From positions 1 to 40,891 of the IMG/VR virus record IMGVR_UViG_3300021952_000483: a DNA stretch of 40,891 nucleotides. The stretch is one strand, 5' to 3'. A program made the position numbers and the translations under genes. Below, one piece after another: positions 30,065 to 40,397 of the stretch. The notes under the pieces were generated by a model. The model was not told the DNA's origin, made no database searches, and saw only the letters and a program-made list of their open reading frames with translations. The stretch comes from a virus. The first letter of the stretch is position 1, and each line of letters opens with the position of its first letter.

Positions 30065-30654
30065 CCACCATCATCCTTCTCGGCGAGCTGGGTAAGCGCT
30101 TCGGGCGCAGGCACAAGATGGCTGTGGCCACTGCTGCGGAAGCGGTGCGTGCCCTGTGCGCGAACTTTCCCACTTTCGAGCGAGAGCTTGTCGCCTCAGG
30201 TGAGAGAGGTGTGGGCTACCGGGTGCTGGCCGGACGGGACGCCTTGAATCTTGAGCGGCTGCATGAGCCCACAGGGCAGCAGCACATCACGATCACACCC
30301 GTGATCTCGGGTGCTGGGGGCAATGGCCTGGGCCAGATCCTTTTGGGGGCGGCTCTGATCGCTGTGTCCTGGTGGAACCCGATGGGCTGGGCTGCAACGG
30401 GTTCGTTTCTTTCGCAGGCCACGCTCTATTCGGTGGGTACTTCCATGATTTTGGGAGGCGTGGCCCAGATGATTGCTCCGACAGCCAAGTCTTCTGACCC
30501 TTCCGAGCGACCAGAAAACCAGCCGAGCTATGTTTTCAACGGCGCTGTGAACACCACGGCCCAAGGGCATCCCGTGCCTGTGGGTTACGGGCGGCTGATT
30601 GTGGGTTCGGCCGTGATCAGCGCTGGCATTGATGTGGATGAGATCGCTGTATGA
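30061..30654 (+). CDS. Tail assembly protein gpI-like
   Basis: A 197-residue tail tip assembly protein. The N-terminal ubiquitin-like part is TIILLGELGKRFGRRHKMA, AAEAVRALCANFPTFERELV, with TITPVISGAGG linking to a hydrophobic Gly-rich stretch (LGQILLGAALIAVSWWNP, TSMILGGVAQMIAP) and the end NTTAQGHPVPVGYGRLIVGS. This matches lambda gpI homologues, normally needed for assembly with gpJ. The overlap with gpJ is ATGA. Confidence 0.92.
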   Translation: MTTIILLGELGKRFGRRHKMAVATAAEAVRALCANFPTFERELVASGERGVGYRVLAGRDALNLERLHEPTGQQHITITPVISGAGGNGLGQILLGAALIAVSWWNPMGWAATGSFLSQATLYSVGTSMILGGVAQMIAPTAKSSDPSERPENQPSYVFNGAVNTTAQGHPVPVGYGRLIVGSAVISAGIDVDEIAV

Positions 30655-33600
30655 GCGCCCAGAGCACTTCTCTGATCATTGGCGCAGGTGGTGGCAAAGG
30701 TGGGGGCGGCAGTGCTCGCGTGGCCCAGGAAGCGCCCGACAGCCTGCGCTCCAAGGCTTATGCCCGGGTCGTTGACCTCGTCTGCGAGGGCGAGATCGAG
30801 GGCCTGGTCGCTGGCCTGCAATCCGTCTACCTGGACGACACACCTATCCAGAATTCGGATGGTTCGTACAACTTCACCGGGGTGACGCTGGAAACCCGGA
30901 CAGGCACCCAGCAGCAAAGCTACATCCCTGGCTTTTCCTCTGTGGAAAACGAGGTCTCGGTTGGGGTGGAGTGCAAATACGGCCAGCCCGTGGTGCGCTC
31001 CATCACCGACCCGGACGTGGACGCTGTGCGCATCAAGGTCAGCATCCCGACGCTGACGCTGCAGGACACCACCAACGGGGACCTGAACGGTACCTCGGTC
31101 ACCTATGCGATCGACCTGCAGTCCCGGGGAGCCGGGTATGTGCAGATCCTGCAGGACACGGTTTCAGGCAAGACCTCATCGCGCTACCAGCGCAGTTACT
31201 ACGTTCCTTTGTCCGGGACTGGTCCTTGGGATGTGCGCTTGCGTCGCATCACGGCAGACTCGACGCAAACCAGCCTGCAAAACAAGACCTTCCTCGAGTC
31301 CTATACAGAGGTGATCGAGAGCAAGCTGCGCTATCCCAACAGCGCGCTGATGGCCTTGCGGGTCGACGCCTCGCAATTTACCTCGATTCCCAGGCGCAGC
31401 TACGACCTCAAGCTCCTTCGGGTTCGTATCCCGTCAAACTACTTCCCCGAGACCCGCTCTTATGCCGGCGTCTGGGATGGCGGCTTCAAGATCGCCTGGA
31501 CGGACAACCCGGCATGGTGCTTCTATGACCTGGTGACCAATACCCGCTACGGTCTTGGCAACTACATGCCTGAGTCGCAGGTCGACAAGTGGGCGCTGTA
31601 CCGGGTGGCCAAGTACTGTGACGAGTTCGTGCCCAACGGGCTGGGTGGCTATGAGCCACGCTTTACCTGCAACCTGTACCTGCAGACCCGGGAGCAAGCC
31701 TACAAGGTGGTGCAGGACATGGCCTCGGTGTTCCGGGGCATGGCTTATTGGTCGGGTGGCGCCATCACGGTCACGCAGGATTCACCTCAGGATCCGGTCT
31801 ACCAGTTCACCGCTGCCAACGTTGTCGATGGTGAGTTCGCCTACCAGGGGTCCTCTGCCAAGGCTCGGCACACGGTGGCGCTGGTCAGCTGGGTGGATCC
31901 GGATGATTTCTATCGCCAGAAGGTGGAATACGTCGAGGACCTCGCAGGCATTGCCCGGTACGGTGTGGTGCAGGCCGATGTGGTGGCCATGGGGTGCACC
32001 TCTCGTGGTCAGGCCAACCGGGTGGGCAAGTGGCTGCTGTACTCCGAGCAGTCCGAGTCGGAGATCATCACTTTCCGTACCGGACTTGAGGGTGCTGTGG
32101 TTCGGCCGGGCGATGTGGTCAAGGTGGCCGATGCCAGCAGAGGTGGCATGCGACTGGGTGGGCGGATTGCTGCGGCCACAACCGTGGGCGTCACGCTTGA
32201 TCAGGATTTGCCTGCAGGATCCTGGCGGATCTCCGTGGTGCTGCCCACCGGCGTCGTGGAAGAGCGGCAGGTGGGATCGCTGTCTGGCCAGACTGTGGGC
32301 GTGACCAGCGCGTTTTCGATGGCCCCACAGGTGGGGGCGATCTGGGTGCTGTCTTCCACGCTGGTGGAGGCGCAGCTCTTTCGGGTGGTGCAAGTCGCTG
32401 AAAGCGAACCTGGTGTCCATGAAATCACGGCGCTGGCGCACAACCCCAGCAAGTACGGAGCCATCGAGCAGGGCTTGGCCTTGCAGCCTCGTGCCATCAC
32501 GGTGCTCTCGACAACGCCTGCAGCCCCCACGGGTCTGACCGTGACCGAGAGCCTTTACCGTGTCAAGGATCAGGCGCTGGTGCTGATCCAGCTCGGCTGG
32601 GAGCAGGTCTTTGGGGCTCTGGAGTACCAGATCACCTACCGCGTCAACGGTGGCAACACGGTCACGCTGCCCAAAGTCTCCAGCACCTATCTGGAGATCC
32701 GAAACGCTGAGGCCGGTCACTACGTCTTCACGGTTCGGGCTGTGGGGGTGTCGGGCAAGCTGGGCAACTCCGCAAGCCTGAGCCAAAGCATTCTGGGCAA
32801 GCTCCAGCCGCCAGATGATGTGCAGGACTTTGTGGTGCTGCGCCGAACGACCGATTTGCTCCTGAGCTGGAGTGCCAACACCGATGCCGACCTCTCGGGG
32901 TATGAGGTGAGGGTGGGGACAGGGTGGGATTCGGGTGTGATGGTCGGGCAGACAGCGGGCACGCAGCTGGTGCATGACCAGAGCGAGTCGGGTCAGTACA
33001 ACTATCACATCCGAGCCTTTGACACCTCCGGCAAGTTCAGTCAGCACGTCACCACCTTCCAGCTCACCTTGCTCGCGCCCTCATCGGTGCGGCAATTTGA
33101 TGTGGTGCAGTCAGCCAACCGGCTGGAGTTTCGTTGGCTGCCCAATCCCGAGCCGGAGGTCGTGGCCTATGAGTTACGGGAAGGGGGCGCCTGGGACACC
33201 TCGATCTTCATCGCCGAGGTCAAGTCCAGCAGTTTCACGCTGCCCTCAGGCTTTGATGGTGAGCGCAAATTCTGGATCAAGGCGATCGCATCGCCCGGCA
33301 TTTACTCGGAAGAAGCCACCTTTGTCTCCACAGTGGTGGCGCAGCCTCAGAACGCGAACCTGCTGGTGACAGTGGATGCGCAGGCGACCCGGTTCCCCGG
33401 CGTGAAGCATTTCGCTTCGGTCGAATCGGTCAACAGCCTGGATGTGCTGCGCATGGACAGCGGGGTGACCCAGTCCGAGTACCTGTTTGAGGTAAATCTG
33501 CCCACCAGCTATCGGGCGCAGAACACCTTGCTGGCCAGCATTGGGGCGACGCTGGATGACCGCGAGACCTGGACCTCAGCCAATTACGCCTGGATCAGCT

Positions 33601-34157
33601 CGGCGGCCAAGCGGCAGTGGACCTATGACGGAGCGCTCAAAAGCATTGAGGCAAGGTTTCAGATGGCCCGTGAGGATGCGCTGCAAGCGGGAGAACTCTA
33701 CGGCTGGCGACTCAATGGGGTGCTCAGCGGCTATGGCAACCCCGTGGGCGCTGAAGCCATTGGCGTGGGTTATGGCGATGGACGTTACGGCAGTGGTGTG
33801 CTGGTCAAGGACACGACCAAGGTGTCCTGGGGGGTGAGTATTCCGGGTGTCTTTCATGTGAGCTTCTGGTTCATCCCGAACCAGATCACCACATCGGTTA
33901 TTTGGACGGCCTCGGGTACAGGGGTAAGCCTCCTGGTCGGTTATGACTCGGTGGCCGGAACCTTCTTTCTGGAGGACCAGCTCTTTAACCGGGTGGTGGT
34001 GCCTTACCCCGTGAACGTGGCTGATCGCATCTGCATCGGTGTGTGCCAGACGGCAACAGAGCGCAGGCTTTTCATCGGAAAGATGGGAGGTGATGTTCAA
34101 AGTGCCAGCAAGCCACTGGCTCCAACGGCGGGTTATTCCGTTCTCAAGCTGTACTGA
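30651..34157 (+). CDS. Tail tip / host specificity protein J
   Basis: A 1168-residue central tail fibre. The N-terminal part (GGGKGGGGSARVAQEAPDSL, SKAYARVVDLVCEGEIEGLV) and the tip domain (WDGGFKIAWTDNPAWCFYDL, GLGNYMPESQVDKWALYRVA) are gpJ signatures. Fibronectin type III-like repeats follow from about residue 620 (TPAAPTGLTVTESLYRVKDQ, LLLSWSANTDADLSGYEVRV, EFRWLPNPEPEVVAYELREG). The C-terminal part is probably the receptor-contacting end or the platform for the side fibres encoded next. A strong terminator closes the gene. Confidence 0.94.
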   Translation: MSAQSTSLIIGAGGGKGGGGSARVAQEAPDSLRSKAYARVVDLVCEGEIEGLVAGLQSVYLDDTPIQNSDGSYNFTGVTLETRTGTQQQSYIPGFSSVENEVSVGVECKYGQPVVRSITDPDVDAVRIKVSIPTLTLQDTTNGDLNGTSVTYAIDLQSRGAGYVQILQDTVSGKTSSRYQRSYYVPLSGTGPWDVRLRRITADSTQTSLQNKTFLESYTEVIESKLRYPNSALMALRVDASQFTSIPRRSYDLKLLRVRIPSNYFPETRSYAGVWDGGFKIAWTDNPAWCFYDLVTNTRYGLGNYMPESQVDKWALYRVAKYCDEFVPNGLGGYEPRFTCNLYLQTREQAYKVVQDMASVFRGMAYWSGGAITVTQDSPQDPVYQFTAANVVDGEFAYQGSSAKARHTVALVSWVDPDDFYRQKVEYVEDLAGIARYGVVQADVVAMGCTSRGQANRVGKWLLYSEQSESEIITFRTGLEGAVVRPGDVVKVADASRGGMRLGGRIAAATTVGVTLDQDLPAGSWRISVVLPTGVVEERQVGSLSGQTVGVTSAFSMAPQVGAIWVLSSTLVEAQLFRVVQVAESEPGVHEITALAHNPSKYGAIEQGLALQPRAITVLSTTPAAPTGLTVTESLYRVKDQALVLIQLGWEQVFGALEYQITYRVNGGNTVTLPKVSSTYLEIRNAEAGHYVFTVRAVGVSGKLGNSASLSQSILGKLQPPDDVQDFVVLRRTTDLLLSWSANTDADLSGYEVRVGTGWDSGVMVGQTAGTQLVHDQSESGQYNYHIRAFDTSGKFSQHVTTFQLTLLAPSSVRQFDVVQSANRLEFRWLPNPEPEVVAYELREGGAWDTSIFIAEVKSSSFTLPSGFDGERKFWIKAIASPGIYSEEATFVSTVVAQPQNANLLVTVDAQATRFPGVKHFASVESVNSLDVLRMDSGVTQSEYLFEVNLPTSYRAQNTLLASIGATLDDRETWTSANYAWISSAAKRQWTYDGALKSIEARFQMAREDALQAGELYGWRLNGVLSGYGNPVGAEAIGVGYGDGRYGSGVLVKDTTKVSWGVSIPGVFHVSFWFIPNQITTSVIWTASGTGVSLLVGYDSVAGTFFLEDQLFNRVVVPYPVNVADRICIGVCQTATERRLFIGKMGGDVQSASKPLAPTAGYSVLKLY

Positions 34158-35901: not shown

Positions 35902-36825
35902 ATGCAGAACTACACCGAAATTCCATCCTCAACGACGCTGTCTGACTCGTTGTCTCAGATCCTGAACAACGACAAGACGGCGCTTTCGCTCTCAAGCGGA
36001 ACGTCTTTCCCGACGGTCAACCTGCAACTGGGTATGCCGTGTTTCAGGACCGACGAGCAAAAGCTCTACATCCTCACGGTGGTTAGCCCCGCTTCTTGGA
36101 AGATGGTCATTGACCTCTCCGCCACAGTCGGCAAGGTGGCCAATGCGGATTTGCTTGATGGCATCGATTCCACCGGCTTTGCCTTGTCGGGTCACAACCA
36201 TGACGCGGCTTATGCGGCGCTTGGCCATAACCACAATGCCGCCTACCTGGGCATCACGGCCAAGGCTGCCGATGCGGACAAGCTCGATGGCTATGACTCG
36301 ACAGCCTTTGTGCGATCGGTCAACGGGTACGGGCCGGATGCCAATGGCAATTCCAGTGTGCCAATTGATCTTTCGAGCCGTGTGGCCAAGTCCGGCGACA
36401 CGATGACCGGCACCCTGACCGTTCCCAGACTTCAGATAGCCAGCACGGCGAACTATCTGGACATGGTGGATCAGGACTGGGGCACCCGGTATCTGCACCA
36501 CAACCAGGGCCTCATGGGATTTTTGAAATCCGATGGCAACTGGGACATGTACATGAACAACAGCGGTCAGATGTGGACAGCCAACTACGGATGGCTGCAC
36601 GACTACTTCTTCAGCACCATCGCCAACTGTTTCATTGGCAACTGCCCTGGCAACACGGGCAATTGCAGCCCAGTGGGCAACAACGCGACTTCTGTGGTTT
36701 CGAACTGCGGTAGCGCATCTTTTGTCCGCGATGAGCTGGTGGACAACGGCAGCCAGATTTCTGTCCGAAGAACCCAATACAACTTCAACTGCAATTGCAA
36801 TTGCAACTGCGATTGCTACTGCTGA
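35902..36825 (+). CDS. Tail fibre protein with Cys-rich C-terminus (putative modification substrate)
   Basis: A 307-residue fibre. The N-terminal part (SFPTVNLQLGMPCFRTDEQK) is typical of side fibres. Two repeats of the form ADxLDGxDSTxF occur at about 81-93 and 124-136. HNHDAAY (98-104) and HNHNAAY (109-115) are His motifs that bind metal in some trimeric fibres. The C-terminal 65 residues are unusual: Asn-Cys pairs at Cys243, 248, 255 and 269, then the last 13 residues FNCNCNCNCDCYC with Cys at 297, 299, 301, 303, 305 and 307. The next three genes encode a 2OG oxygenase, an unknown protein and a radical SAM/SPASM enzyme in a tight operon, so this tail is the obvious candidate substrate. Simple metal or disulfide binding is the alternative. 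Confidence 0.85.
   Translation: MQNYTEIPSSTTLSDSLSQILNNDKTALSLSSGTSFPTVNLQLGMPCFRTDEQKLYILTVVSPASWKMVIDLSATVGKVANADLLDGIDSTGFALSGHNHDAAYAALGHNHNAAYLGITAKAADADKLDGYDSTAFVRSVNGYGPDANGNSSVPIDLSSRVAKSGDTMTGTLTVPRLQIASTANYLDMVDQDWGTRYLHHNQGLMGFLKSDGNWDMYMNNSGQMWTANYGWLHDYFFSTIANCFIGNCPGNTGNCSPVGNNATSVVSNCGSASFVRDELVDNGSQISVRRTQYNFNCNCNCNCDCYC
36787..36822 (+). repeat. Hexanucleotide coding repeat (AAY TGC) at the fibre 3' end
   Basis: Six consecutive NNY TGC codon pairs, four of them AAY TGC, encode the Asn-Cys run. It is short, in frame and ends at the stop codon. Slippage here would change the number of Asn-Cys units by whole steps without shifting the frame. Confidence 0.85.
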
Positions 36826-36838
36826 TCCGGGGAGACAC

Positions 36839-37417
36839 ATGAGCGATTTGACAAAAATCTTCCCCGCTCCGGTGCTTCGCATCCAGGAGCTGTTGAGCCC
36901 CTCCGAGGTTGAGCAAGCGACCGAGATGGCTATCAAAGCCAACGAGCGCCTCAATGACCATCAGGTCCCGTACTCCCGCACCTACCGTGACAGCCTGGAC
37001 TTCATGTTCCCAGAGTTCTTCAAGCCCATCTTCCGACGCCTGCGCCGCAGCATCGAGGACGAGTTCAATTGCAGCGTCAGCAACATGGTGGGGCGCGAAT
37101 CCATATTTCGCTACGGCCAGCACCTGCCTTTCCACACCGAGCCGCACGCTGATATTTCTTGCGTGCTGTGGCTGGACTTCCCCGCAAAGCCCGACCCATC
37201 CAAGCGCGATTACTCGGGGATGTTCTGCCTGCACAACCCGCATCTCCTGTTTGGTGGCCGCGCAACAGGGGTGTTTGGAAACATCAACCACATGGAAATG
37301 CCATCGCCTGGTGATGCCTTCGTTTTTCCTTCCCACATGCCGCATTTCGTGTTCCCGTACAACGGCGAGCGCCCTGGCGTGGAACTTCACTTTGAAATGC
37401 TTGCGGAGGCTGCATGA
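36839..37417 (+). CDS. 2OG-Fe(II) oxygenase
   Basis: A 192-residue 2-oxoglutarate/Fe(II)-dependent dioxygenase, prolyl-hydroxylase-like. The iron ligands are His103 and Asp105 in HTEPHADISC and His169 in FPSHMPHFVFP; Arg178 in NGERPGVELHFE is the probable 2OG anchor. GDAFVFPSHMPH is the usual strand before the distal His. It has a GGGGAGA ribosome site 13 bases after the fibre stop, and overlaps the next gene (ATGA). Such enzymes hydroxylate or cross-link amino acids in proteins and peptides. The fibre C-terminus is the nearest candidate substrate; host surface molecules are an alternative. Confidence 0.85.
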   Translation: MSDLTKIFPAPVLRIQELLSPSEVEQATEMAIKANERLNDHQVPYSRTYRDSLDFMFPEFFKPIFRRLRRSIEDEFNCSVSNMVGRESIFRYGQHLPFHTEPHADISCVLWLDFPAKPDPSKRDYSGMFCLHNPHLLFGGRATGVFGNINHMEMPSPGDAFVFPSHMPHFVFPYNGERPGVELHFEMLAEAA

Positions 37418-38112
37418 AGCTCGTTACCTTCAATGCCAGCGTCGATGAAGAAAAGGCGGTGCGTGTAGAGCAAACCGCTGACGGCTACACCGTTTCCTTT
37501 GCTGGCGCATCCATCAACATTGGCGTGCAACTTTTCAAGCAGGGCGAGCTGCAGTTCCTGATGTATGGCAAGCAGTATCAGAGCGAGGTCATTGGCATCG
37601 TTTCTCAGCGCGAATATGTCGACAGCCGAGATGGTCTGACGATCCTGGCCCAGCACGGCCTGACCGATGGCCTGGGCTGGTTCTACTTCGGCGATACCGC
37701 CGAAGAGGCCTGTCTATGCATCACCAAGGCCATGACGGCGCAATGTCCATTCGACATCGTGCAGCCGGGAAAGCCCCGTGATGTTCTGCCAGGCATCTTT
37801 CCTGACAGCGAGAAGCTTGGCGTGCGCAACCTGGCCAAGATCGCGCTGCTGCGCAAGCTCAACCCGCTCGACAGCCTCGCCGCTCTGGAAAAGCAGGTCG
37901 ATTTGCTCAGCGTACTGGTCATCCAACTGGCCAACCTGGTCCCTGGCCAAGAGGACATCGCCCTTGTCGATCACCTCCAGCACATCATCACTGATGCCAG
38001 CGCCAACGCAGGCAAGAGCGACGATCAAACCGTCGCCAGCGTTCTGTCTTTCAAGAAGGCGCTGCGCCAAGCGCAGGCCGATTACTTCGCTGCACGCGAC
38101 GGAGCCACATGA
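37414..38112 (+). CDS. Unknown protein between oxygenase and radical SAM enzyme
   Basis: I do not recognise this 232-residue protein. The first half looks beta-rich (KLVTFNASVDEEKAVRVEQT, YTVSFAGASINIGVQLFKQG), the middle has SQREYVDSRDGLTILAQHGL and EEACLCITKAMTAQC, and the last third is helical (SLAALEKQVDLLSVLVIQLA, VASVLSFKKALRQAQADYFA). It overlaps both enzyme genes by ATGA, which implies a shared job. By analogy with RiPP operons it could be a substrate-recognition partner, or it could be a fibre chaperone. I see no motif that decides this. Confidence 0.78.
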   Translation: MKLVTFNASVDEEKAVRVEQTADGYTVSFAGASINIGVQLFKQGELQFLMYGKQYQSEVIGIVSQREYVDSRDGLTILAQHGLTDGLGWFYFGDTAEEACLCITKAMTAQCPFDIVQPGKPRDVLPGIFPDSEKLGVRNLAKIALLRKLNPLDSLAALEKQVDLLSVLVIQLANLVPGQEDIALVDHLQHIITDASANAGKSDDQTVASVLSFKKALRQAQADYFAARDGAT

Positions 38113-39485
38113 TGACCAAATTCATCGTCACTACGATCAACCCCGACAATGGCCAACTTACACGTTTGCACTATGACAATGCAACCAGCGAGTTGACCCG
38201 CGAAACTGGCGAGTCCTTGGTGCAGGCGGTCGAAGTCACCGAGCGTGCACATGTCCCAGCAGTCTCCAGGCAGACGCCACTGGGCAAGACCAGTCCCCGC
38301 ACCCTAAAGATCAGCCTTGGCCTGTCTTGCAACTACGAGTGCGAATACTGCTCGCAGCGCTTCGTTCCTCGCACAGTCGAAACCAACCCCGGCGATGTGC
38401 AGGCCTTCATCGATGGCCTCGACGCCTGGGTGACGAGCCCGCCCGAGAAGGTCGAATTCTGGGGTGGCGAGCCTCTGGTCTACATCAAGACCATGCGCCC
38501 CCTGGCCGAGGCCATCAAGGCCAAGTTCCCCAAAGCAGAGCTGTCGGTCATCACCAACGGCTCGCTGCTGAGCGACGACATCAACGAATGGCTTGACCGC
38601 ATGGGTTTCAGTGTCGGTATCTCGCACGATGGCCCTGGCCAGCATGTGCGCGGTCCTGATCCCCTACAGGACCCCCAGCAGCGGGCCGCCATCATGGCGC
38701 TGTACGCCCGCCTGGCCCCGCAGCGGCGTATCAGCTTCAACGCGATGGTCAATCGTAAAAACGCCTCGCGCGCCGCCATCCAGCGCTTTTTCATCGAGTT
38801 GACAGGCGATCCCATGGTCCCCATTGGCGAGGGCAGCTTTGTTGACGCCTATGACGAGGGCGGCATTGCCCACTCGCTTCAGCCGTATGAGTTGCACCCC
38901 TACCGCAGTCTGGCCTTCCACGAAATCCGTACTGGCCAGGCCGCCAACGTCCAGGCCGTGAATAGCAAGACGGCCAGTTTCATCAATTCCATCCGAAGCC
39001 GCCGCCCGGCATCCAGCCTTGGCCAAAAGTGCGGCATGGATAAGTCCGACAGCATCGCTGTCGACCTACGCGGCAACGTCCTGACCTGCCAGAACGTGAG
39101 CGCAGCCAGCACCGCGCCCAATGGCCAGGCCCACCGCATTGGTCATGTCTCCGACCTTGCGGCCGTCAAGCTCGACACTGCCACGCACTGGAGTAAGAGG
39201 GCGGATTGCCCGAGCTGTCCGATGCTACAGATTTGCCAAGGCTCCTGTATGTTTCTGGAAGGCCCCCTGTGGGACCGATCATGCGACAACGCTTTCTCTG
39301 ATGCAGTGCCCATCTTCGCCGCTGGCATCGAATTCCTGACCGGACAGGTACCTGTGCACATTGAGGGCATGTTTCGGGAGGACCGCAAAGATATCTTCGG
39401 TATCTCTGGTCAAAGGCTCAATAACCAGGGAGCTACCCCGAAACCAGCAAGAAAACCTTTCCCGATCCCGGTCGTCTCCGTTTAA
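38109..39485 (+). CDS. Radical SAM/SPASM protein (putative fibre maturase)
   Basis: A 458-residue radical SAM enzyme. The [4Fe-4S]-SAM motif is CNYECEYC (Cys74, 78, 81), and the SAM-binding GGEP is at 119-122. A full SPASM domain follows: Cys308 with GNVLTC (Cys327), then CPSCPMLQICQGSC (Cys367, 370, 376, 380) and Cys392, ligands for two more clusters, the arrangement of peptide maturases and anaerobic sulfatase-maturing enzymes. Residues 1-65 before the core could hold a recognition part. It ends a tight operon behind the Cys-rich fibre gene and is closed by a terminator at 39508. Cys-centred chemistry such as thioether cross-links is plausible; the substrate is not proven. Confidence 0.92.
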   Translation: MMTKFIVTTINPDNGQLTRLHYDNATSELTRETGESLVQAVEVTERAHVPAVSRQTPLGKTSPRTLKISLGLSCNYECEYCSQRFVPRTVETNPGDVQAFIDGLDAWVTSPPEKVEFWGGEPLVYIKTMRPLAEAIKAKFPKAELSVITNGSLLSDDINEWLDRMGFSVGISHDGPGQHVRGPDPLQDPQQRAAIMALYARLAPQRRISFNAMVNRKNASRAAIQRFFIELTGDPMVPIGEGSFVDAYDEGGIAHSLQPYELHPYRSLAFHEIRTGQAANVQAVNSKTASFINSIRSRRPASSLGQKCGMDKSDSIAVDLRGNVLTCQNVSAASTAPNGQAHRIGHVSDLAAVKLDTATHWSKRADCPSCPMLQICQGSCMFLEGPLWDRSCDNAFSDAVPIFAAGIEFLTGQVPVHIEGMFREDRKDIFGISGQRLNNQGATPKPARKPFPIPVVSV

Positions 39486-39552: not shown

Positions 39553-39936
39553 ATGCCTGAACCTACAAGCTCTGGAGTCGCAGGAGCGGCTGCCGCCTAC
39601 AAAGCCATTGGTGGTGCTGCTGGTGCAGCTGCCGGTGGTGCCACCCTAGCGGCGGTTGTCGTGATGCTCATGACGCCCCCCAGAACCGTTCGCGAGTGGA
39701 CGGTGGGGTTGATCAGCACCGTCGTTTCGAGCATCTGTGGTGGCGCTGTCACCGTCGAGTACTTCCAGTTGCATCACTGGGCGTTTTCAACGATCGGTCT
39801 GTATGCCATGGGCGGGGTGATCTTTGCTTGTGGCTTGCCTGGCTGGGCAATGGTGCGCTGGTTGTTCAACTTCATCGACGAGCGACGTGATGCTTCGATC
39901 GACCAGGTCGCCAAAGATGTGAAGGAGCTGCTGTGA
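39553..39936 (+). CDS. Putative holin
   Basis: A 127-residue membrane protein with three hydrophobic segments (about 20-42, 49-71 and 77-105) and a charged C-terminal tail (DERRDASIDQVAKDVKELL). It lies directly before the endolysin, overlapping by GTGA. The size, topology and position fit a class I holin that opens the inner membrane. The start has GGAG ahead. Confidence 0.78.
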   Translation: MPEPTSSGVAGAAAAYKAIGGAAGAAAGGATLAAVVVMLMTPPRTVREWTVGLISTVVSSICGGAVTVEYFQLHHWAFSTIGLYAMGGVIFACGLPGWAMVRWLFNFIDERRDASIDQVAKDVKELL

Positions 39937-40397
39937 TACCTGTGGAGTTCATCACGCGGCTATCTAACCCCGCGATTGAGTCCCAGCAAAAGTCTGGGGT
40001 TCCTGCCAGCATCACGATCGCTCAGGCGGCACTTGAGTCCGCTTGGGGAGAGTCTGGACTGGCAAAGACGGGGAACAACCTATTTGGGATCAAGGCAGAC
40101 AGCCGATGGCGAGGCGATACCCTTACCTTAAACACGCGTGAGTTCATCAAGGGGCAATGGCTGGTTGTTCCAGCCAAATGGCGGAAGTACGCCAGTTGGC
40201 AGGCCAGCATTGATGACCATGCTGCATTCCTCAAAGGTAACTCTCGCTATCAGCCGTGTTTCTTGTGCCAGACAACTGAAGCTTTTGCGCGTGCGCTGCT
40301 CAAGGCGGGTTACGCGACCGATCCTTCCTATGCCGACAAGTTGCTCGGTTTGATTGCCCAGCACAAGCTCTTGGCCTTGGATTGCGAGTCGAAATGA
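39933..40397 (+). CDS. Endolysin, glucosaminidase (GH73-like)
   Basis: A 154-residue peptidoglycan hydrolase of the FlgJ/GH73 type: IAQAALESAWGESGLAKTGN with the probable catalytic Glu35, NNLFGIKAD, and the Tyr/Trp-rich WRKYASWQASIDDHAAFLKG. There is no signal peptide, so release should depend on the holin. It has a GTG start overlapping the holin stop, and its stop overlaps the Rz start (ATGA). Confidence 0.9.
   Translation: MIPVEFITRLSNPAIESQQKSGVPASITIAQAALESAWGESGLAKTGNNLFGIKADSRWRGDTLTLNTREFIKGQWLVVPAKWRKYASWQASIDDHAAFLKGNSRYQPCFLCQTTEAFARALLKAGYATDPSYADKLLGLIAQHKLLALDCESK

Follow-up and report, generated by a model that had tools for sequence, protein, structure and literature searches.

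Tail fibres determine which bacteria a phage infects. In the virus record IMGVR_UViG_3300021952_000483 (40,891 bases, analysed at full length and called the window here, with its loci given in window coordinates), one such fibre ends in a run of Asn-Cys pairs, and the third gene downstream encodes a radical S-adenosylmethionine (SAM) enzyme with a SPASM domain. Searches from both directions support the conclusion that this enzyme and the cysteine tail are one unit, well beyond the window phage. The module is real, widespread and strongly conserved.

We explain these observations, with reasonable though far from full confidence, by a fibre-maturation module of phages and prophages of which the window would be one member. 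On newly synthesised fibres, the radical SAM enzyme would bind the Cys-X-Cys tail and form several bonds in it before assembly. These would most likely be thioethers between the cysteine sulphur and a carbon atom in Asn, Asp or an adjoining residue. An oxygenase, if encoded, would hydroxylate the same tail, probably at Asn or Asp. Holding or capping of the fibre end would fall to a partner protein, c4 in the window and the immunoglobulin (Ig)-domain protein c0 in other loci. The tail would have to terminate the chain, either through a stop codon or through self-cleavage of a Hint domain.

The Asn-Cys tail and its linkage to a radical SAM enzyme

The presumed substrate is a tail fibre of 307 amino acids (35902-36825, plus strand; phrog_8443, tail fiber protein, E 7e-7). 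Its C-terminal sequence is FNCNCNCNCDCYC. The tail itself, NCNCNCNCDCYC plus stop (36787-36825, plus strand), is recognised from its sequence, its conservation in relatives and the Asn-Cys tails beside the enzyme in other clusters. Cysteines occupy positions 47, 243, 248, 255, 269, 297, 299, 301, 303, 305 and 307; Asn precedes those at 243-269 and 297-303, Asp precedes 305 and Tyr precedes 307. The four Asn-Cys pairs within residues 242-269 (36625-36708, plus strand), recognised from the sequence, may also lie within the modified region. Scattered Asn-Cys pairs upstream of the tail are found in many relatives as well.

Proteins homologous to the window fibre are present in 36 loci. Across ten compared relatives the last 15 residues show no amino-acid change, while AAC/AAT and TGC/TGT codons interchange freely in the tail and silent changes occur at many codons. 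Since the residues are fixed while the Asn and Cys codons switch, the tail is under selection. In the inspected regions upstream of the enzyme, fibres unrelated in sequence have only the Asn-Cys end in common. Tail cysteines are preceded by Asn in 71% and by Asp in 8%, and Cys is the sole strictly repeated residue of the tails. Among 128 unique tails, 108 end at most six residues from the C-terminus, 17 are directly followed by the start of a Hint domain and three, internal or close to the end, by other residues. Judging from sequence, a free C-terminus seems to matter for the tail. At two loci (L053/L054, 5627-6558, and L072, 6011-7090) three tandem Cys-tailed open reading frames stand ahead of one radical SAM gene, which suggests interchangeable tips. 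In the isolate genome of Parasutterella muris NM82_D38 (L382), a Cys-tailed fibre has the same N-terminal start as the window fibre.

Viral contigs scanned with the window enzyme yielded 80 loci (46-94% identity), and bacterial and archaeal genomes scanned with the enzyme alignment yielded 182 relatives, 80 of which were kept. At 90% identity, 215 loci of the radical SAM enzyme were grouped into 125 clusters. The better genome matches belong to Burkholderiales (Limnohabitans, Polynucleobacter, Burkholderia paludis, Paraburkholderia), Rhodobacterales (Thalassobacter, Thalassovita, Nereida) and also to Rhodospirillales, Magnetospirillum and Halomonas. Where these loci were inspected, their contexts resemble prophage tail regions. 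In the phage record collection, a close homologue is present only in JWF (two records) and 2-1.

The pairing of the enzyme with a Cys-rich fibre end, as proposed in the original prediction, holds widely and in both search directions. An Asn-Cys tail lies at most 7 kb from the enzyme in 110 of the 125 clusters; seven others have too little upstream DNA and eight remain. Three of these eight have shorter tails (L017, L048, L055) and one has its tail at the contig edge (L020); once such cases are added, the tail is present in about 114 of the 118 clusters that can be evaluated. Homologous operons lacking a Cys end, named beforehand as contrary evidence, thus amount to about four evaluable clusters (L047, L316, L357, L372). 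At least one of them is a broken-gene locus: the fibre and oxygenase frames of L316 look disrupted, and L357 looks non-phage.

In the reverse direction, NCNCNC followed by a stop codon was searched in viral contigs without using the enzyme (at least 120 matches), with CNCNCN-stop as control (78 matches). The two approaches share some contigs; the reverse set was nonetheless found independently. Among the matches listed, frames of at least 80 codons were found for 66 of 120 NCNCNC-stop motifs versus 3 of 78 controls (Fisher p 2e-15). Among the same matches, 28 of the 31 long NCNCNC frames with at least 4 kb of downstream sequence have this radical SAM family, which occurs with none of 30 short chance frames and none of the 78 controls. 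Some of the 31 are near-identical; counted as distinct tails in these listed matches, 23 of 26 carry the enzyme. In the three exceptions (L145, L156, L164) the motif terminates a different kind of protein. Three such kinds with an NCNCNC end, and with this enzyme not found nearby, were observed: one at L145, one at L097, L156 and L177, and one at L100, L138, L164 and L188. The shortest version of the module consists of a Cys-tailed frame of 134-176 codons, followed by the radical SAM gene and then c0 (L096, L098, L105, L116, L136, L139).

Fibres that are about 95% identical over their first 80 residues have different tails with different radical SAM enzymes (L019, L025, L028, L041). Enzyme distances correlate with tail distances at r 0.81 versus 0.58 for the fibre N-terminus (partial r 0.79 when controlling for the latter), and physical closeness accounts for part of this correlation since the region just upstream of the tail tracks the enzyme almost equally (0.80).

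Linkage from both sides contradicts the idea that an auxiliary metabolic function or an anti-defence function (viperin-like, for instance) explains the enzyme and that its proximity to the fibre is incidental. The PADLOC pVip match (9e-15) speaks for this idea, and the NCBIfam viperin model (NF038283) gives 50.6 bits, a score far under its cut-off of 180. Furthermore, viperins to our knowledge have no SPASM domain. We consider this explanation extremely improbable and rejected it. Because Asn-Cys tails almost always adjoin one radical SAM enzyme of a cross-linking type, many phages probably modify their own fibre tips chemically. The sequence data make the tail very probably the substrate of this enzyme.

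Enzyme class and putative chemistry

The presumed maturase (458 amino acids; 38109-39485, plus strand) scores over the cut-offs of PF04055 and TIGR04085 and belongs to phrog_1802 (E 2e-62), a family catalogued merely as radical SAM domain-containing, without a function or a link to the tail. Its CX3CX2C cluster motif (C74, C78, C81; 38328-38351, plus strand) is accompanied by a SPASM region with seven cysteines (C308 to C392; 39030-39284, plus strand). The latter reads C308-X13-G-X4-C327, C367X2C370X5C376X3C380 and C392, and contains the class motif CX9-15GX4C...CX2CX5CX3C...C. All ten cluster cysteines are invariant in 47 of 47 aligned relatives and no eighth SPASM cysteine is conserved; the SPASM domain is thus complete, as had been claimed. 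The ratio of non-synonymous to synonymous substitution rates (dN/dS) is 0.09-0.13 for this enzyme and about 0.07-0.10 for the oxygenase, and spans 0.07-0.15 overall for the three genes downstream of the fibre. A second divergent radical SAM gene adjoins the first one or the Cys-tailed fibre in L019 (6546-7979), L021 (3322-4329) and L382 (14932-15975), and also in L345 and L356; these genes belong to phrog_1802 where scanned.

The nearest curated families of the window enzyme are PapB and QhpD. The ranthipeptide maturase PapB, which forms thioethers from Cys to side chains (PMC9413430), is represented by the one NCBIfam model (NF047865) matching all 47 scanned members (best E 3e-21). The nearest solved structures include the thioether-forming CteB (5wgg) and anSME (4k37). 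As far as the enzyme type is concerned, the earlier suggestion of thioethers gains support, as the closest characterised relatives make such bonds. CteB has an open auxiliary I (Aux I) site, and the seven cysteines of AlbA led to the same proposal, whereas the clusters of anSME are fully ligated with four cysteines on Aux I (PMC6231123). Seven SPASM cysteines without an eighth, as in CteB and AlbA, therefore favor thioether over formylglycine formation, without proving it. By analogy with PapB, CteB and QhpD, thioethers are the probable product. Cross-links and hydroxylation together would give the hardened tip envisaged in the original prediction.

Several points weigh against this explanation. 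Sequence similarity is a poor guide to function within this enzyme subfamily (PMC6231123), and all scores against maturase models lie far under the curated cut-offs. For the window enzyme, PapB reaches 55.9 bits (cut-off 340), QhpD (TIGR03906) 52.4 bits (cut-off 453) and anSME (TIGR03942) 37.9 bits (cut-off 349); moreover, the neighbours are fibre genes with no QhpC-like substrate, and seven rather than eight SPASM cysteines are present. The PapB substrate is a peptide precursor in which Cys is paired with Asp or Glu, a pairing that the tails do not follow because Asn, not Asp, precedes most of their cysteines. In addition, relatives without a tail exist (L047, L357, L372), and the distance correlation between tail and enzyme is partly expected from proximity. 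In agreement with ribosomally synthesized and post-translationally modified peptide (RiPP) systems, a putative precursor, the Cys-tailed frame, is found beside the enzyme in the 110 clusters above, though it is usually a fibre and not a small peptide. No protease gene for leader removal was recognised in the cassette; C-terminal self-cleavage is possible in Hint-type relatives.

Two other outcomes of the enzyme reaction deserve attention. An anSME-like enzyme would oxidise tail cysteines to formylglycine, resulting in an aldehyde-bearing fibre tip without cross-links. Such a reaction could be expected from the anSME structures among the nearest solved relatives, from TIGR03942 matches in 20 of 47 members (E up to 1e-10) and from one JWF record which annotates its own copy as anSME. 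It is at odds with the cysteine count discussed above, four cysteines binding Aux I in anSME. The sulfatase-type target motif is CX(P/A)XR, and none was seen in the listed tails. We regard formylglycine formation as improbable. Alternatively, the enzyme may introduce another change in the tail, with the cysteines serving only as ligands or for recognition. SPASM and related enzymes perform epimerisation, C-C/cyclophane cross-linking and desaturation, and the cyclophane maturases YhhB and AmcB and structures of YydG match weakly. However, Cys is the only residue strictly repeated in the tails, and thioethers are what the closest relatives of characterised function produce, which leaves such a change unlikely, if less so than formylglycine.

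Oxygenase, partner proteins and Hint domains

Directly behind the fibre gene, a 2-oxoglutarate (2OG)-Fe(II) oxygenase of 192 amino acids is encoded (36839-37417, plus strand; phrog_81, E 1e-10). Its match to PF13759 (E 1e-4) remains below the cut-off of 27 with 23.1 bits, while a relative in L015 reaches 27.6 bits. Intact metal ligands had been claimed for this enzyme. This holds for the window protein, but the motif differs among relatives: in the superfamily alignment H99 and H169 are invariant (28 of 28), whereas substitutions occur at the acidic position (E101 or D105) and at R178.

The next gene (37414-38112, plus strand) encodes a protein of 232 amino acids, family c4 (unk4), delineated by the alignment of its relatives; scans of Pfam, PHROG and NCBIfam gave no family assignment. 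In the alignment the N-terminal part varies and the helical C-terminal part is conserved, and the AlphaFold2 (AF2) model is of low confidence (predicted local distance difference test, pLDDT, 62). In other loci the same slot beside the radical SAM gene is taken by c0 (for example 6540-7397 in L016, one of 51 such loci). Its AF2 model is confident (pLDDT 89; predicted template modelling score, pTM, 0.85); here the N-terminal part is variable, and conservation is seen in an Ig-like domain at the C-terminus. Matches of c0 in the PDB are partial and cover the Ig-like domain, with the invasin/intimin type among the best, and only uncharacterised phage proteins match it over nearly its full length. 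Profile comparison detected no homology between c4 and c0. Within the 111 evaluable clusters, c4 occurs in 19, c0 in 81, both in none and neither in 11 (hypergeometric p for exclusion 5e-14, without correction for relatedness). They may substitute for each other in holding or capping the end of the fibre. The roles proposed here for oxygenase and partner are tentative, and we would sooner doubt than defend them.

The original prediction treated fibre, oxygenase, c4 gene and radical SAM gene as one operon. Oxygenase families are present in 58 of the 111 clusters, and c0 stands in the place of c4 in most of them. Since oxygenase and c4 are optional companions of the radical SAM enzyme, absent from many clusters, the four-gene operon is not the functional unit and was rejected as such. 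In six loci (L018, L020, L022, L030, L033, L038) several unclassified proteins (c7, c8, c12, c13) are encoded between the tailed fibre and the radical SAM enzyme.

The presence of c0 or c4 near the enzyme in 100 of the 111 clusters could also mean that the enzyme acts on one of these proteins, or on the fibre body, and that the tail is a metal-binding or disulphide tip; runs of Cys-X-Cys indeed look like metal-binding tails. Yet c0 and c4 are unrelated in sequence and 11 clusters have neither. Furthermore, tail and enzyme persist together across unrelated fibres and partners, and in some loci the tail is followed directly by the enzyme. We judge it improbable that the tail is spared by the enzyme.

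Returning to modification of the tail, Hint-type relatives offer a second way to a free end. In the 17 unique tails mentioned above the Hint start follows immediately (pattern NCNC...TCFPAGT). In phage JWF the Pfam domain Hom_end_hint matches residues 308-344, right after the tail (E 3e-12). A Hint domain directly behind the fibre tail was found in L082 and L083 (Achromobacter phages 2-1 and JWF), L029, L300-L304, L306-L310, L338, L347, L374, L376-L378 and L389. The Hint cysteine and a block-B-like histidine are recognisable, and self-cleavage is predicted to expose the tail end. The likeness to Hint/Hedgehog-type domains (PF05203, PF01079) does not extend to the window, where no such domain is present and the tail stops at a stop codon. 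The oxygenase is absent from 14 of 15 Hint-type clusters.

Related systems and genomic context

The best functional parallel is the QhpC/QhpD/QhpG system. There, a protein subunit acquires several internal Cys thioethers through the action of a radical SAM enzyme from the same operon, and an oxygenase also acts on this protein substrate (PMC7876137). In contrast, the substrate is an enzyme subunit whose leader is removed by a protease, the acceptors are Asp and Glu and the oxygenase is a flavoprotein, whereas a fibre end is the proposed substrate here. CteB/SCIFF and AlbA, similar in the Aux I features described above, differ in acting on small Cys-rich peptides; beside the window enzyme, no gene for a precursor of that kind was seen. 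Radical SAM cassettes have been noted in the host-recognition cluster of pelagimyophages, phages of SAR11 (PMC7029224). In the open-access literature, the range of our search (preprints and subscription papers lying outside it), no description of fibre maturation by a radical SAM enzyme was found.

In its broadest form, the proposal is a general class of virion maturation: phages of several bacterial classes would rebuild the fibre C-terminus by radical chemistry into a multiply cross-linked Cys cap, exposed by Hint where needed, which would serve as a receptor-binding tip or as the place where an exchangeable adhesin (c0 or c4) docks. This generalisation is conceivable, and we hold it with less than even confidence. 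If many phages do modify their fibre ends in this way, work on such fibres that relies on sequences or recombinant proteins overlooks the functional form, and protein-modifying enzymes of a new family, whose substrate tag is short and portable, are at hand. The idea is directly testable because cultured carriers exist, namely the Achromobacter phages JWF and 2-1 and the Limnohabitans and Thalassobacter isolates with chromosomal genes.

Within the window, the coordinates, gaps and motifs given in the original prediction were reproduced. Fibre and oxygenase genes are separated by 13 bases, and the junctions of the oxygenase with the c4 gene and of the latter with the radical SAM gene are ATGA overlaps. 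The gene order is lambda-like: J, two further tail genes, the fibre, three small genes and lysis genes. Tip attachment protein J (central tail fibre; PF24801, PF13550) is encoded at 30651-34157 on the plus strand, and an endolysin (glucosaminidase; PF01832, E 7e-39) at 39933-40397 on the same strand, which places the cassette between tail-tip and lysis genes.

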